A model generated the notes under the pieces. That model was not told where the DNA came from, made no database searches, and worked only from the letters and a program-made list of their open reading frames with translations. A DNA stretch of 64,000 nt from Pseudoxanthomonas indica (GTDB lineage: Bacteria > Pseudomonadota > Gammaproteobacteria > Xanthomonadales > Xanthomonadaceae). Position 1 is the first letter of the stretch. Each line of letters opens with the position of its first letter. A program made the translations under genes and the position numbers. Below are positions 36,584 through 42,241 of the stretch, one piece after another. Location of the stretch: assembly GCF_900167565.1 (NCBI RefSeq), contig NZ_FUZV01000001.1:1240001-1304000 (forward strand), given 5' to 3'.

Positions 36584-37618
36584 TTACGCCGCCGTGCGGT
36601 CGGTCATCGTGGTCGCCGCCAGCGCCTGCTCGATCAGGGACCAGTCGGCGCCGGGACGATGCGCGCCCTCGCTCAGGATCTGGCGGAACAGCCGCCCCCC
36701 GGGCTGGCTATGGAACAGTCCCAGCACATGCTTGCTGAGATGCTTGAGCGCAATGCCGCGCGCCAGGCAATGCTCCACGTAGGGTCGCAGCGTTCGCAGC
36801 AGCTGCTCGCGGCTTTGCAGTTCGCCGCCCCACAACGCCACTTCCAGCTCGTGCAGCAGATAAGGCTCGTGGTACGCGGCACGACCGAGCATCACGCCAT
36901 CGGTATGGCGAAGCTGCTCGCGCACGCCCTCGACCGTGGCGATGCCGCCATTGATCGCAATGGTCAGCTGCGGAAGTTCCTGTTTGAGCTGATGCACCCA
37001 CTCATAGCGCAGCGGCGGAATCTCGCGGTTTTCCTTCGGCGACAGCCCCTGCAGCCAGGCCTTGCGCGCATGCACGAAGAAGGTGGTGCAGCCTGCTGCG
37101 GCCACCGTATCGATGAAGGCGCGGAAGCGGTCGTAGTCTTCCAGCTCATCCACGCCCAGCCGGCATTTCACCGTCACCGGAATGTCCACCGCGGCGATCA
37201 TTGCCGCCACGCTGTCGGCGACCAGTGACGGCTCTTTCATCAGGCAGGCGCCAAAACGCCCTGCCTGCACGCGATCCGACGGGCAGCCGACGTTGAGATT
37301 GACCTCGTCGTAGCCCCACTCCTGCGCGATATGCGCGGCCTGCGCCAGCAACGCCGGCTCGCTGCCACCCAACTGCACGGCCACCGGATGTTCGACCTCG
37401 CTGAAACCCAGCAGGCGATCGCGATCGCCATGGATCACCGCCTGCGCATGGACCATCTCGGTATACAGGCGCGCGTGGGGTGACAGCAGGCGATGGAAGA
37501 CCCGACAGTGGGAGTCGGTCCAGTCCATCATCGGGGCCACTGACACCGCCAGGGGCCCGGGAATGCTTGCGGCAGCTGCCTCTTCGCCAGAAATATCAGT
37601 GTTTTCAGCTTGTTGCAT
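36584..37618 (-). CDS. dusA: tRNA-dihydrouridine synthase A
   Basis: A 344-residue FMN enzyme that reduces uridine 20/20a in the tRNA D-loop. Conserved blocks: SVAPMMDWTDSHCRVF, YDEVNLNVGCPSDRVQAGRFGACLM (catalytic Cys) and INGGIATVEG. The frame continues upstream, but the start at 37618 is the first that fits the family. The 5' end is the known target of one group of phage integrases, and an integrase of that type starts 83 bases away on the other strand. The first codons and the leader may therefore be phage-derived. The gene itself is intact. Confidence 0.94.
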   Translation of the reverse strand: MQQAENTDISGEEAAAASIPGPLAVSVAPMMDWTDSHCRVFHRLLSPHARLYTEMVHAQAVIHGDRDRLLGFSEVEHPVAVQLGGSEPALLAQAAHIAQEWGYDEVNLNVGCPSDRVQAGRFGACLMKEPSLVADSVAAMIAAVDIPVTVKCRLGVDELEDYDRFRAFIDTVAAAGCTTFFVHARKAWLQGLSPKENREIPPLRYEWVHQLKQELPQLTIAINGGIATVEGVREQLRHTDGVMLGRAAYHEPYLLHELEVALWGGELQSREQLLRTLRPYVEHCLARGIALKHLSKHVLGLFHSQPGGRLFRQILSEGAHRPGADWSLIEQALAATTMTDRTAA

Positions 37619-37660
37619 TATGTGGTGTTTCCGGTGGATTCTCGGCTTTTGAGCCAGTGA

Positions 37661-37699
37661 AGTGCTACGCTCAGTGCTACAAACGAGGCCATGTAGCAC
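37661..37699. repeat. Short repeats upstream of the integrase
   Basis: AGTGCTAC occurs at 37661 and 37673 (12-bp spacing), and GTAGCAC, its inverse, at 37693. They lie between dusA and the integrase start. They may be integrase arm-binding or att-core sites. Confidence 0.5.
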
Positions 37700-37701
37700 C
37701 G

Positions 37702-38775
37702 ATGGGAACGATCACGGCACGCCGCCGCTCCGACGGCTCGACAGGATACACCGCGCAGATCAGGCTCAAGCAGGATGGCCAAGTCGTCCACAGCGAGTCC
37801 GAAACCTTCAACACGAAGGTCCTGGCCAAGGAATGGCTGACGCGGCGCGAGGCTGCGCTCGATGCCCAGCGCGCCCGCGGCGGGCCCGTTGGCAAGCGCA
37901 TGAAGCTGGGCGACCTGGTCGCCTGGTACGAGACACGCGAGCGTTCTGGCGAGCCGTGGGGCAGGACGAAGAAGGCCGACCTTCAGCGACTGCGTACCGG
38001 CGCACTTCGTGAGCGCTGGCTCGATACGTTGACGCGTCGCGACTTCGTGGATTTCATCGACCAGCGCCGGCGTGATGGGGCTGGGCCCGCAACTGCCGGC
38101 AACGACATCATTTGGATGAGAGGTGTATTCAAGGCCGGCGCCGCTGCTCTGCATATTGCAGTGCCCCTGCAGGAGCTCGAGCTCGCCGCTGAGTTCCTCA
38201 GAAGTGATCGCGCCATCGGTAAGTCCGGTCAGCGCGACCGCCGCATGTTGGCCGACGAAGAAACTAAGCTGCTGGACCATTTCGACGGCCGACGCGGCAA
38301 GATTCCGATGGTAGATATCGTTAGGTTCGCCGTGCTGACGGGACGCCGACAGGAGGAGATCACCCGCCTCTTGCGATCAGACTTGGATAAGAGCAACGGT
38401 GTGGCGTTATTGCGTGATGTAAAACATCCACGCAAAAAAATCGGTAACCACAAACGCTTTCGATTGCTGAGCGATGCTTGGGCGATAATTGATGCTCAGC
38501 CAATTCTCAGAATCGTTAACCAGGACGGCACTTCTCTGGAAGACCCGAGGGTTTTCCCGTTTGACCCGAAGTCAATCGGTTCTGCTTTCACTCGCGCAAC
38601 GCGCTTGCTGGGCATTGAAGATCTGCACTTCCACGATCTGAGGCACGAGGCCACTTCTCGATTATTTGAACGGGGTTATAGCATCCAAGAAGTCGCCCAG
38701 TTCACGCTTCACGAGTCTTGGACTACGCTCAAAAGATATACGCACCTGAAACCCGAACAAGTTCCGGAACGATGA
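37702..38775 (+). CDS. int: Tyrosine recombinase (dusA-targeting integrase family)
   Basis: A 357-residue integrase. The start MGTITARRRSDGSTGYTAQIR is the typical N-terminal arm-binding domain of this family. The catalytic set is complete: Arg in LTGRRQEEITRL, a Lys in the beta-hairpin, HDLRHEATSRL, and the tyrosine in TLKRYTHLKPEQV. Integrases of this type insert in the 5' part of dusA. It is divergent from dusA, and its message runs into the cargo zone. Confidence 0.93.
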   Translation: MGTITARRRSDGSTGYTAQIRLKQDGQVVHSESETFNTKVLAKEWLTRREAALDAQRARGGPVGKRMKLGDLVAWYETRERSGEPWGRTKKADLQRLRTGALRERWLDTLTRRDFVDFIDQRRRDGAGPATAGNDIIWMRGVFKAGAAALHIAVPLQELELAAEFLRSDRAIGKSGQRDRRMLADEETKLLDHFDGRRGKIPMVDIVRFAVLTGRRQEEITRLLRSDLDKSNGVALLRDVKHPRKKIGNHKRFRLLSDAWAIIDAQPILRIVNQDGTSLEDPRVFPFDPKSIGSAFTRATRLLGIEDLHFHDLRHEATSRLFERGYSIQEVAQFTLHESWTTLKRYTHLKPEQVPER

Positions 38776-38956
38776 AAAGCTGCTGGATTTCGGGCGAGTG
38801 CGCGACTCCAGAGGAAGATTAAAAGTCTCGCCGGGATTCGTTGAGTTTCCACATGTTACGTATGAATGCATTCCGCAAACGCAACTTATTGAGTGCTATC
38901 AAACCGCAGCGTTTTCGCCCGTTCCCTGCTTTTTGCGGAAAGCCCGCCGCCACTTC

Positions 38957-39634
38957 TTACGTGTGCAGCTGAATGCCCATCCGAGACTTCGGCAAGGGAG
39001 GTAACGGTTTCGTCCCGACGCTACGCGCGATGAACAGCCGAAGGTGTTCGCGATCTTCAACGATTTCCGAAAGCGCGTCATCAAAGTCTGTCTTCGAGAT
39101 CTGGCTGTTCGAAAACTTCTTGAGCAGCTTCGCTTCCTGGTTATTCAGTTCAAGCACGTCCAACTGAACTCGATTCACTACAGACATCAGGGTCCGCCTA
39201 AATTCAACCCGGTCAGGGTCGTTAAGCTGCAATAGCTCTTCCATATGCTCTCCGTGCTCAGAGTGCGGATGCATCATGCCGTTCTTTGAGTTGAACCGAA
39301 GGTGCTCGGACATCACGTCGTCGCACGGGTTCACTACGCGCTTGGACGTAGCAGTTGCAGGCCAGTCATTGCTTTTACGCGAGTTGCAGTTGGCGCAGCA
39401 GTAGTAGAGATTCGAGTACTCGCAAAGAAGGTGCGCGAACTGAGGAAGACCTTTTGGTCGGTAGTGGTCGACCGAAAAGATTAGGCTGGGCACGCTCGAA
39501 TCCGCCTGTCGGCAATATACGCAAAGCCGCGAGAATTCGTTTTGTAGGTACTTCTTGTACGTGCTGTACTTCTTGAACTTACGCGGACGGAGCGTCCGCA
39601 CGTGACGCGTGCCGGGATACTCGAAGAGGCCCAT
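38957..39634 (-). CDS. HNH endonuclease family protein
   Basis: A 225-residue protein. The HNH core lies at about 38-90: CVYC (zinc pair), SVDHYRPKG (catalytic His57), YYCCANCNSRKSN (second zinc pair and metal-binding Asn). The rest is helical and not recognised. It starts three bases after the stop of the upstream unknown gene, last in a three-gene operon with a TIGR04255-type protein. HNH proteins of this kind are often toxins or effectors of defence systems. Confidence 0.85.
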   Translation of the reverse strand: MGLFEYPGTRHVRTLRPRKFKKYSTYKKYLQNEFSRLCVYCRQADSSVPSLIFSVDHYRPKGLPQFAHLLCEYSNLYYCCANCNSRKSNDWPATATSKRVVNPCDDVMSEHLRFNSKNGMMHPHSEHGEHMEELLQLNDPDRVEFRRTLMSVVNRVQLDVLELNNQEAKLLKKFSNSQISKTDFDDALSEIVEDREHLRLFIARSVGTKPLPPLPKSRMGIQLHT

Positions 39635-39637
39635 TTT

Positions 39638-40102
39638 TCAAATTCCCCAGCGCTCGCCCCTAGCCTTGCGCTTCGCCGCCAACTCTTCCCGAGTTGCCAC
39701 GGCTGCTTCCAAGTAATTGATTTGCTCTTGGGTTACCAATGGTGCGTGGTGCTTGATGCGCGCATTGAGTTGCTCGAGTCTCGCGATGATCTCTACAGAC
39801 GGTTTTGCCGTTCCATTTCGGGCAGCCAGGATCGCTACGCGGCGGCGAGCGATCAGCGCCAACTCGTCAGAGTTTGACGTTGCTTCGCTTGTTTGGACTT
39901 CACTCCTCGTCAACGCGCTTGCACGCGCATTCGAAGAGTCGGCTGGCTGAGAACTTCCCGAAAAATGGGCGCGCAATCGACCTACATCACCATACCCTTC
40001 CATGACAAGGAACTGACTGAAGTAGGGAGGACTGCTTCCTGCTGCGGAGGTAGGCGCCATGATGCTTGTGACTAATTCCGGGGGGAATGTTACGTCATAC
40101 AT
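39638..40102 (-). CDS. Unknown protein, middle gene of the HNH operon
   Basis: A 154-residue protein starting two bases after the TIGR04255 stop. The central part is rich in Ser, Ala and Pro and is probably disordered; the C-terminal 70 residues form a charged helical region (IARLEQLNARIKHHAPLV). No domain is recognised. Its place between two conserved proteins suggests an adaptor or regulator. Confidence 0.72.
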   Translation of the reverse strand: MYDVTFPPELVTSIMAPTSAAGSSPPYFSQFLVMEGYGDVGRLRAHFSGSSQPADSSNARASALTRSEVQTSEATSNSDELALIARRRVAILAARNGTAKPSVEIIARLEQLNARIKHHAPLVTQEQINYLEAAVATREELAAKRKARGERWGI

Positions 40103-40104
40103 AG

Positions 40105-40866
40105 TCAATCCTTTGCCTGCAAGTACGACTTGGCTCGTTCTCCGAGCGTCCACTGAAAGAGCGCGAAAGATCGTTCGTGAAGTTTGTCCAAGACCTCGAA
40201 CGTATCGGTTACCGAAACGGCGGCTTGAAAGACATCGAGGTCAATGACATAGGAGACGGTGCTCACGTCGCCGCCCTGGTGATTCGTTACCAGCGCGAGC
40301 TGATGTCGCAATAGTGCACCCTCTTCAAGCGTGCCCACCTGCAGAGCGCCTCCGAAGCTGTTGACGGGGCGAAGGAGCTCCTGACCTATCGGGCCAACAA
40401 GATCACGATTGACCCACCCGTCCGCCGGATCGCCATAGATTGTGTTGATGTAACGAAGCCCGACTCGTGTCCAAATATCCGAATCAATGATTGGAGCAGC
40501 TGCTGCTACCAGTTGTTCGACTCGACTGCGCAAATCGGCATAGCCGTCGTAGGAGTTTCCTTCAATCGAAACTGAGCTCTGTTTCAATGTTGCGAGCCAA
40601 CCTCCGCGAACTTCCCGCAAGATGTGAGCCTGCGTTGTCTCAGACGTACCGCCGAAGCTGATGTTGACTTGCTGACCTGCTTCGAGGTTTGGGTACTTTT
40701 TCCGGAGAGCAGTGACGAAGGAAGCAGGGGGCCGGGAATTGCCGAACTCGAGGATCGTTGGGAACTTGAGTTCGCAAACAATCTGAGTGACGAAGCTTCG
40801 GGCGTACTCTCTCGCCCCTTGAGGGGTGGAGTCCTTTCCAGATGCGCTCTTTGACTTCGAGTTCAT
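40105..40866 (-). CDS. TIGR04255 family protein
   Basis: A 253-residue protein. Blocks such as QIVCELKFPTIL, WTRVGLRYINTIYG and ISFGGTSETTQAHI resemble the TIGR04255 family, whose function is unknown. The ATG at 40866 is the first reasonable start; a TTG lies 11 codons upstream. It is first in the operon with the unknown protein and the HNH nuclease. Confidence 0.75.
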   Translation of the reverse strand: MNSKSKSASGKDSTPQGAREYARSFVTQIVCELKFPTILEFGNSRPPASFVTALRKKYPNLEAGQQVNISFGGTSETTQAHILREVRGGWLATLKQSSVSIEGNSYDGYADLRSRVEQLVAAAAPIIDSDIWTRVGLRYINTIYGDPADGWVNRDLVGPIGQELLRPVNSFGGALQVGTLEEGALLRHQLALVTNHQGGDVSTVSYVIDLDVFQAAVSVTDTFEVLDKLHERSFALFQWTLGERAKSYLQAKD

Positions 40867-41019
40867 GGCCAAATCCGGTTCCCATTGTCCATGGTTCAAG
40901 GGATCGGTGAATTCTACACGGCCTCCCTCAATGTGTTGTTATATGCCATTGCGTTTCATTGCGCGCAACTGCCCCCTCTCCTTTTAGACGAATGTCCGCC
41001 TGAGCCCCTCAGCGGTCGC

Positions 41020-41355: not shown

Positions 41356-41528
41356 GCCGAATAGCCTATTCCCCCACGGGGAGGGCGGCTAGGTGAAAAG
41401 GTTGAGGCAGATGGATGGCGGCTCAAATTGCCAACCGGTTATCCACAGGCTTACCTGCAACCGCTTGCGAAGGGATGGATGTAGGGTGTGCGCACCGGCA
41501 GGTGATCTGCCCTTCAACCGAGGCGACC

Positions 41529-41738
41529 ATGGCTGAGATTCCGAAACAGTTTGCGTTGTATAAGGACAGAACTGGCGAGTGGCGTTGGCGGCTTCACGCG
41601 GCCAACGGCAAGATCATTGCAGACAGTGCTGAAGCCTATACCACGAAAGCAAACTGCATCCACGGAGCGCGACTCGTCGCCTCTGTAGCCACCGGGGCCG
41701 GCATCTGGAATGTGGTGGATCAGAAGTGGGAAGCATAG
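41529..41738 (+). CDS. DUF1508/YegP-like protein
   Basis: A 69-residue protein. FALYKDRTGEWRWRLHAANGK and the later SAEAYTTKANC fit a single DUF1508 unit. The role of the family is unknown. Its stop overlaps the start of the HEPN-like gene, so the two are probably coupled. Confidence 0.82.
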   Translation: MAEIPKQFALYKDRTGEWRWRLHAANGKIIADSAEAYTTKANCIHGARLVASVATGAGIWNVVDQKWEA

Positions 41739-42241
41739 CTGGCCCGGAAACCCCAGTGAACCATCCCGGCGTGACCTCGCCGTTCGGCATGCTGAGATAC
41801 GCGCATGAGTATTTGAGAGCAGCTCGAATCGTTGAGGAAAATCGCAACGATGAGTTAGTGCCTCCCTTGTACATGCTACTTGGGCAATCTATCGAGCTCT
41901 CGCTCAAAGCGTACTTATTGGCGCGGGGCGCCAGCCTTCGCGATCTGAGATTTTCGTATGGTCACGACCTGCGAAAGCTGCTTGATGCCGCGCTCCAAAA
42001 ACGCATCGACCGACTGGTCCCGCTACAAGAGTTCGACCTTTCAACGATTCGCGTTCTCGGCGACGCATACATTACGCATGAGCTTCGCTACATCGTTACC
42101 GGCTTCCGAACCTTGCCGAACTGGTCATTCAGTCAACGAGCTGCCGCGCTTTTGACGGATGGTCTGCACGACTATTTGTTGCGCCAGCGAATAGGCAAGA
42201 TCGCCGCATCGGTGCGTATTGAACAAAAGGGACGGTTCTAG
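41726..42241 (+). CDS. HEPN-like domain protein
   Basis: About 171 residues from a GTG; an ATG at 41789 would give a shorter form. The sequence is all-helical: QSIELSLKAYLLARG followed by GHDLRKLLDAAL is the pattern of HEPN nucleotidyltransferase/RNase-associated domains. The RxxxxxH-type active pair is not clearly kept. HEPN proteins often act as toxins or RNA binders in defence systems. Confidence 0.65.
   Translation: MGSIAGPETPVNHPGVTSPFGMLRYAHEYLRAARIVEENRNDELVPPLYMLLGQSIELSLKAYLLARGASLRDLRFSYGHDLRKLLDAALQKRIDRLVPLQEFDLSTIRVLGDAYITHELRYIVTGFRTLPNWSFSQRAAALLTDGLHDYLLRQRIGKIAASVRIEQKGRF

Follow-up and report, generated by a model that had tools for sequence, protein, structure and literature searches.

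What three small, closely packed genes are doing beside the integrase of a prophage is the question raised by a 64,000-nucleotide stretch of Pseudoxanthomonas indica DNA (contig NZ_FUZV01000001.1, positions 1,240,001 to 1,304,000; the whole stretch is called the window below). The genes, at positions 38957 to 40866 of the window, encode a TIGR04255 family protein, a middle protein that matches no family and a predicted PtuB-like HNH nuclease. In this study, the layout, recurrence, predicted structures and neighbourhoods of this module were analyzed. The module is probably an undescribed defence or toxin system, and the form of this idea that we favour, tentatively and with slightly less than even confidence, is that of a conflict system of three parts, based on a nuclease and carried by the prophage as cargo.

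Three genes inherited jointly

Transcription runs on the minus strand from the TIGR04255 gene (P0003, 40866 to 40105; 253 amino acids from an ATG) through the middle gene (P0002, 40102 to 39638; 154 amino acids from an ATG, with an alternative GTG start at 40153 giving the longest frame) to the HNH gene (P0001, 39634 to 38957; 225 amino acids). The first two genes are separated by 2 bases and the last two by 3 bases. The GC content of the module is 0.544, compared with 0.585 for the adjoining integrase, 0.657 and 0.60 for two late genes and 0.645 for the window. A compact co-strand operon, opposed to the integrase and lower in GC than the late genes, had been described in an earlier sequence-only reading of this DNA; the coordinates, strands (the integrase is convergent, on the plus strand) and composition agree with that description throughout.

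The same reading had staked its module on the three genes occurring together in other genomes, and they do. A search with the HNH alignment found 14 loci in genome contigs (two of them, L006 and L007, in one genome) and eight in viral contigs. A TIGR04255 match lies upstream on the same strand in 14 of the 14 genome loci, and TIGR04255 is upstream in all 22 HNH-anchored loci, one copy being disrupted. Searching the viral contigs with the TIGR04255 alignment yielded nine loci, eight of which (L040-L047) are on the same eight contigs as those of the HNH search (L031-L038); the ninth, L039, is a distant relative that shows no HNH-family match. Furthermore, all 19 intact, non-duplicate relatives encode a homologous middle protein between the TIGR04255 and HNH genes, the two intervals measuring -4 to 40 and -4 to 8 bases. 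With homologous trios in the same order in these 19 relatives, the three genes are one real unit and not a chance adjacency.

The pairwise distance matrices of 20 modules are strongly correlated (TIGR04255-middle, r = 0.82; TIGR04255-HNH, 0.87; middle-HNH, 0.87), and values as high were reached in none of 2000 permutations, which leave shared ancestry in. The three genes have been inherited jointly and have diverged in step in other bacteria, on genome and viral contigs alike. The window's own copy appears among the loci as L001, L016, L048 and L083. The middle-protein alignment and the distance tests exclude L007 (same genome as L006, truncated by the contig end), L032 (the same module as L003), L015 and L017/L029. 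The last two are disrupted: in L015, on a Cupriavidus pSym plasmid, extra sequence separates the TIGR04255 and middle genes and the HNH frame is split, and in the HNH-type module L017/L029 (genome G174) it is the TIGR04255 gene that is broken.

The predicted nuclease and its partners

The third protein is predicted to be the effector nuclease, on the basis of PADLOC and NCBIfam PtuB matches (73.3 bits with the PADLOC model) and its motif residues. Across the 40 aligned members of the HNH family, the window included, C38, C41, D56, H57, N75, C80, C83, N84 and K87 do not vary. The sequence-only reading had claimed a complete HNH zinc and catalytic set; the invariance of the motif positions supports it, whereas the division into zinc-binding and catalytic residues is itself a reading of the motif, in which the catalytic set would be H-N-N because its third position is Asn.

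Septu (PtuA-PtuB) and retron-Eco7/Ec78 (RT-PtuA-PtuB, where RT is reverse transcriptase) likewise have an HNH effector of the PtuB kind. However, it is accompanied there by a PtuA-like ATPase, and in the retron also by an RT, whereas the partners here are TIGR04255 and the unmatched middle protein. The operon lacks a gene for a PtuA-like ATPase, the companions of the HNH gene being those for TIGR04255 and the no-family protein, with the integrase on the other side, and no RT match was found in the module, the integrase or the nearest scanned open reading frames (ORFs), msr-msd RNA not having been searched for. PMC13096335 describes a Septu system in which substitutions in the PtuB H-N-H motif or the PtuA Walker motifs abolish defence, and which is reported to cleave tRNA-Tyr and to depend on the H-N-H residues. 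PMC11555353 attributes loss of tRNA-Tyr to PtuAB of retron-Eco7 and describes E. coli Septu PtuAB as DNA-degrading.

The first protein scores 96.8 bits with NCBIfam TIGR04255 (sporadTIGR04255), against a curated cut-off of 30. Its AlphaFold2 model (mean pLDDT 86) has an alpha+beta fold that may be read as two similar halves. A fold search with this model gave no convincing structural relative, and no PADLOC model matched the protein at E up to 1. In addition, no paper naming TIGR04255 was found among 5.39 million open-licence full texts, a collection mostly without subscription papers and preprints and in which the family may appear under other names. The protein may be the conserved control or sensor part of the module.

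The possibility that the module is instead a direct restriction system, in which foreign or modified DNA is recognised by TIGR04255 and then cut by the HNH protein, recruited by the middle protein, is improbable. The resemblance of the TIGR04255 protein to TBP is within the range that the fold-search tool assigns to common arrangements, TBP folds are not all DNA-binding, and the operon contains no helicase or methylase.

For the middle protein, nothing beyond chance was found in Pfam, NCBIfam, PADLOC (E up to 1) or PHROGs; 19 homologues occupy the equivalent position in other modules. Its structural model (pTM 0.34) has pLDDT below 50 over most of residues 1-67, followed by predicted helices at 72-96, 103-119 and 125-151. 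The protein could be an adaptor or an antitoxin. An adaptor role is suited by this disordered-then-helical predicted shape and by the way in which second and third gene types are paired in other TIGR04255 operons (see below); an antitoxin role fits about as well.

The latter role belongs to the main rival of a conflict system, a system of the toxin-antitoxin-chaperone type, in which the HNH protein would be the toxin, the middle protein an unstable antitoxin and TIGR04255 a chaperone-like protein stabilising the middle protein via an exposed tail. Prophage retention would then be the main job, and phage sensing may be secondary. We consider this unlikely, although it predicts nearly the same genetics. 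The small proteins and compact operon in a prophage are as it would have them, as is the mostly disordered start of the middle protein, in which an aromatic residue occurs at positions 2-5 in 17 of 20 middle proteins compared with 103 of 363 background ORFs. A precedent with a sensing chaperone is CmdTAC, as described in PMC11618068; it too consists of three small genes and would be a parallel if the HNH protein is held in check by the middle protein and TIGR04255 senses phage. However, the effector of CmdTAC is an ADP-ribosyltransferase, and the likeness considered here is one of arrangement. Furthermore, no kinship of TIGR04255 with chaperones was shown; SecB is absent among the 50 fold-search entries listed, which excludes nothing and tests nothing.

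In the three-part conflict system that we favour, the roles of sensor (TIGR04255), adaptor (middle protein) and effector (HNH protein), as proposed from sequence, fit the observations. The TIGR04255 protein would hold the system off and respond to infection or to competition from another mobile element. The middle protein would be the link, its disordered first part touching TIGR04255 and its helical second part holding the HNH protein. Upon the trigger, the PtuB-like nuclease would be released or activated and would cut nucleic acid (DNA or tRNA), stopping phage production, probably at the expense of the cell.

Prophage cargo and defence neighbours

The module is convergent with the tyrosine integrase of the prophage (37480-38775, plus strand; the longest frame, the true start being probably further in), which matches Pfam Phage_integrase with 62.9 bits and the PHROG 1 integrase with 153.6 bits. 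Scans of ten long frames from 43.8 to 63.9 kb identified proteins for tail, head protease, portal and terminase among them, and the module is therefore inside the prophage, between the integrase and the tail genes. The cargo location given in the sequence-only reading is thus confirmed, with the module adjoining the integrase at the tail-gene end.

The module could be part of the ordinary phage gene set, with the HNH protein serving packaging, homing or another step of the phage cycle. HNH proteins are common in phages, this one weakly matches several phage HNH families, and the same prophage contains genes for tail, head, portal and terminase. Against this stand its position at the integrase end, away from the terminase, its lower GC content, some copies in genome contigs that adjoin restriction genes, and a single TIGR04255 match (23% identity) in 50,697 phage records. 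We regard an ordinary phage function as very improbable.

On the far side of the integrase, the 5' end of a minus-strand gene at 36584-37699 overlaps the integrase frame; we take this gene, on the basis of a motif, to be dusA. Window positions 36700-41000 were searched as DNA against 41 genomes (the own genome and 40 relatives) and were matched in 37. The matches of the relatives are to the putative dusA part, extending in G816 and G822 to the integrase part as well, and no listed match of a relative reaches the module. The similarity stops at position 37545 in the four relatives checked, and in most relatives the DNA shared with the query ends at about this point. The 5' end of the putative dusA is probably the insertion site of the prophage; islands inserted at this end of dusA are described in PMC4482086. 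Divergent from the module are two small cargo genes on the plus strand, one for a DUF1508 protein (41415-41738; 50.1 bits, Pfam) and, overlapping it, one for a HEPN-domain protein (41726-42241; 22.0 bits, exactly the Pfam cut-off).

In three relatives (L033, L038 and L035) the module likewise abuts an integrase, and the two are convergent in L033 and L038 as in the window. Other copies have as neighbours type I restriction-modification genes (L009), an MmeI-type gene (L011), PDC-S21 (L004) or PDC-S31 (L002). The proposal of a defence module in the sequence-only reading holds in part: the HNH protein is defence-associated through its likeness to PtuB, the trio recurs, and some copies, picked by eye, are beside integrases or restriction genes; on the other side, the antitoxin role of the middle protein fits about equally.

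Several results weigh against a conflict system with a PtuB-like effector. The HNH protein scores 41.4 bits with the NCBIfam PtuB model NF041761, for which the cut-off is 150, and 35 bits with TIGR02646, for which it is 52.15; it is also under the Pfam HNH cut-off. The HNH subtype is rare: among 398 genomes, with at most seven candidates scored per genome, only the own genome gave more than 77 bits with the HNH profile. No promoter-like or terminator-like sites were found around the operon, and the permutation tests retain shared ancestry, as noted above. PADLOC was run on ten neighbours picked by eye, with no background control, and four of them had no match at E up to 1e-10; for these reasons the defence neighbours illustrate, and do not test, an enrichment.

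Possibly exchangeable partners of TIGR04255

Of 397 genomes sampled in the phylum, 26 have a TIGR04255 match, compared with none of 14 control genomes. At loci other than those above, 40 of 42 TIGR04255 genes have a second gene on the same strand within 100 bases, and 36 of 42 also a third, in a survey with crude ORF calls and no random-gene control, some loci being too short to reveal a third gene. The 40 second proteins form six clusters and eight singletons, as do the 36 third proteins. Genome G091 carries three TIGR04255 genes on different contigs (L073, L096 and L099). In L018, L019 and L070 the longest frame of the second gene overlaps the end of TIGR04255 by 116, 101 and 107 bases; the overlap may be real, since the overlapped N-terminal parts look alike by eye.

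The types of the second and third genes are associated: at the 26 of 42 loci where both proteins belong to clusters of at least two, none of 10000 shuffles gave as strong an association. Helix-turn-helix-like second proteins occur with third proteins of the 'QG..CD' type, nine times with those of cluster a and once with cluster b. Four second proteins of another type are paired with a third protein that may be read, from its motif, as cysteine-hydrolase-like, the members scanned having no Pfam match. The 'WDGYG' second proteins (3 and 2) go with two different third clusters, a fourth type is found at three loci with its own third cluster, and short second proteins (2 + 2) go with cluster b. 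The third protein of L073 is a PIN domain (35.8 bits, cut-off 23.6). The 'QG..CD'-like start marks the commonest third-gene family, with nine of 36 proteins (L022, L024, L027, L028, L072, L075, L080, L081 and L095), and neither of the two members scanned, from L024 and L075, has a Pfam match at E up to 0.1. The third gene of L098 (1575-1946) appears HEPN-like by eye; Pfam yields no HEPN match for it.

One cluster holds 12 of the 40 second proteins, and its scanned member, from L024, has weak helix-turn-helix and antitoxin-family matches. This speaks for the toxin-antitoxin-chaperone alternative, whereas scans of Pfam and NCBIfam with the middle protein of the window matched no DNA-binding domain. 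As regards a control protein with exchangeable partners, the matching of second and third gene types suggests that the second protein contacts the third, and the constancy of the first gene suggests that the control part is common to these operons.

A tree of 52 TIGR04255 rows, with 11 of the 20 HNH modules (the window among them) and without the fragment L093, places the 11 HNH-type proteins in one group (98/94), nested in a supported group of 20 rows (99/94) whose other rows have other or unclassified partners. The partner labels, of which M32B lumps several third-gene clusters by judgement, require 16 changes on the tree (minimum 7, shuffled mean 33.8); the deep placements are unsure because many branches are long.

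A possible link to a candidate system of PADLOC, PDC-M32, comes from L026, whose second protein weakly resembles PDC-M32A (30 bits, profile positions 256-356) and whose third weakly resembles PDC-M32B (21 bits). The window differs in that PADLOC gives no match at E up to 1 for its middle protein or its TIGR04255 protein, and for the HNH protein PDC-M32B is not among the 25 of 63 matches listed. Four TIGR04255 proteins of other loci matched no PADLOC model at E up to 0.1. PDC-M32 is reported from Sinorhizobium prophages in PMC12429752.

Counting the HNH, PIN, possible cysteine-hydrolase, 'QG..CD' and PDC-M32-like pairs, there may be an unrecognised family of three-gene immune operons in which TIGR04255 stays constant, for control or sensing, while adaptor and effector are exchanged as matched pairs. 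The HNH module of the window would be one prophage-carried subtype of this family; we hold this wider idea to be conceivable but rather doubtful. Conflict systems that consist of a three-part nuclease operon are already known, but here a PtuB-like nuclease is joined to two families for which no function was found. If the wider pattern is true, TIGR04255 would be explained as the common component of a modular immune or toxin-antitoxin system and could serve as a simple handle for finding its effectors.
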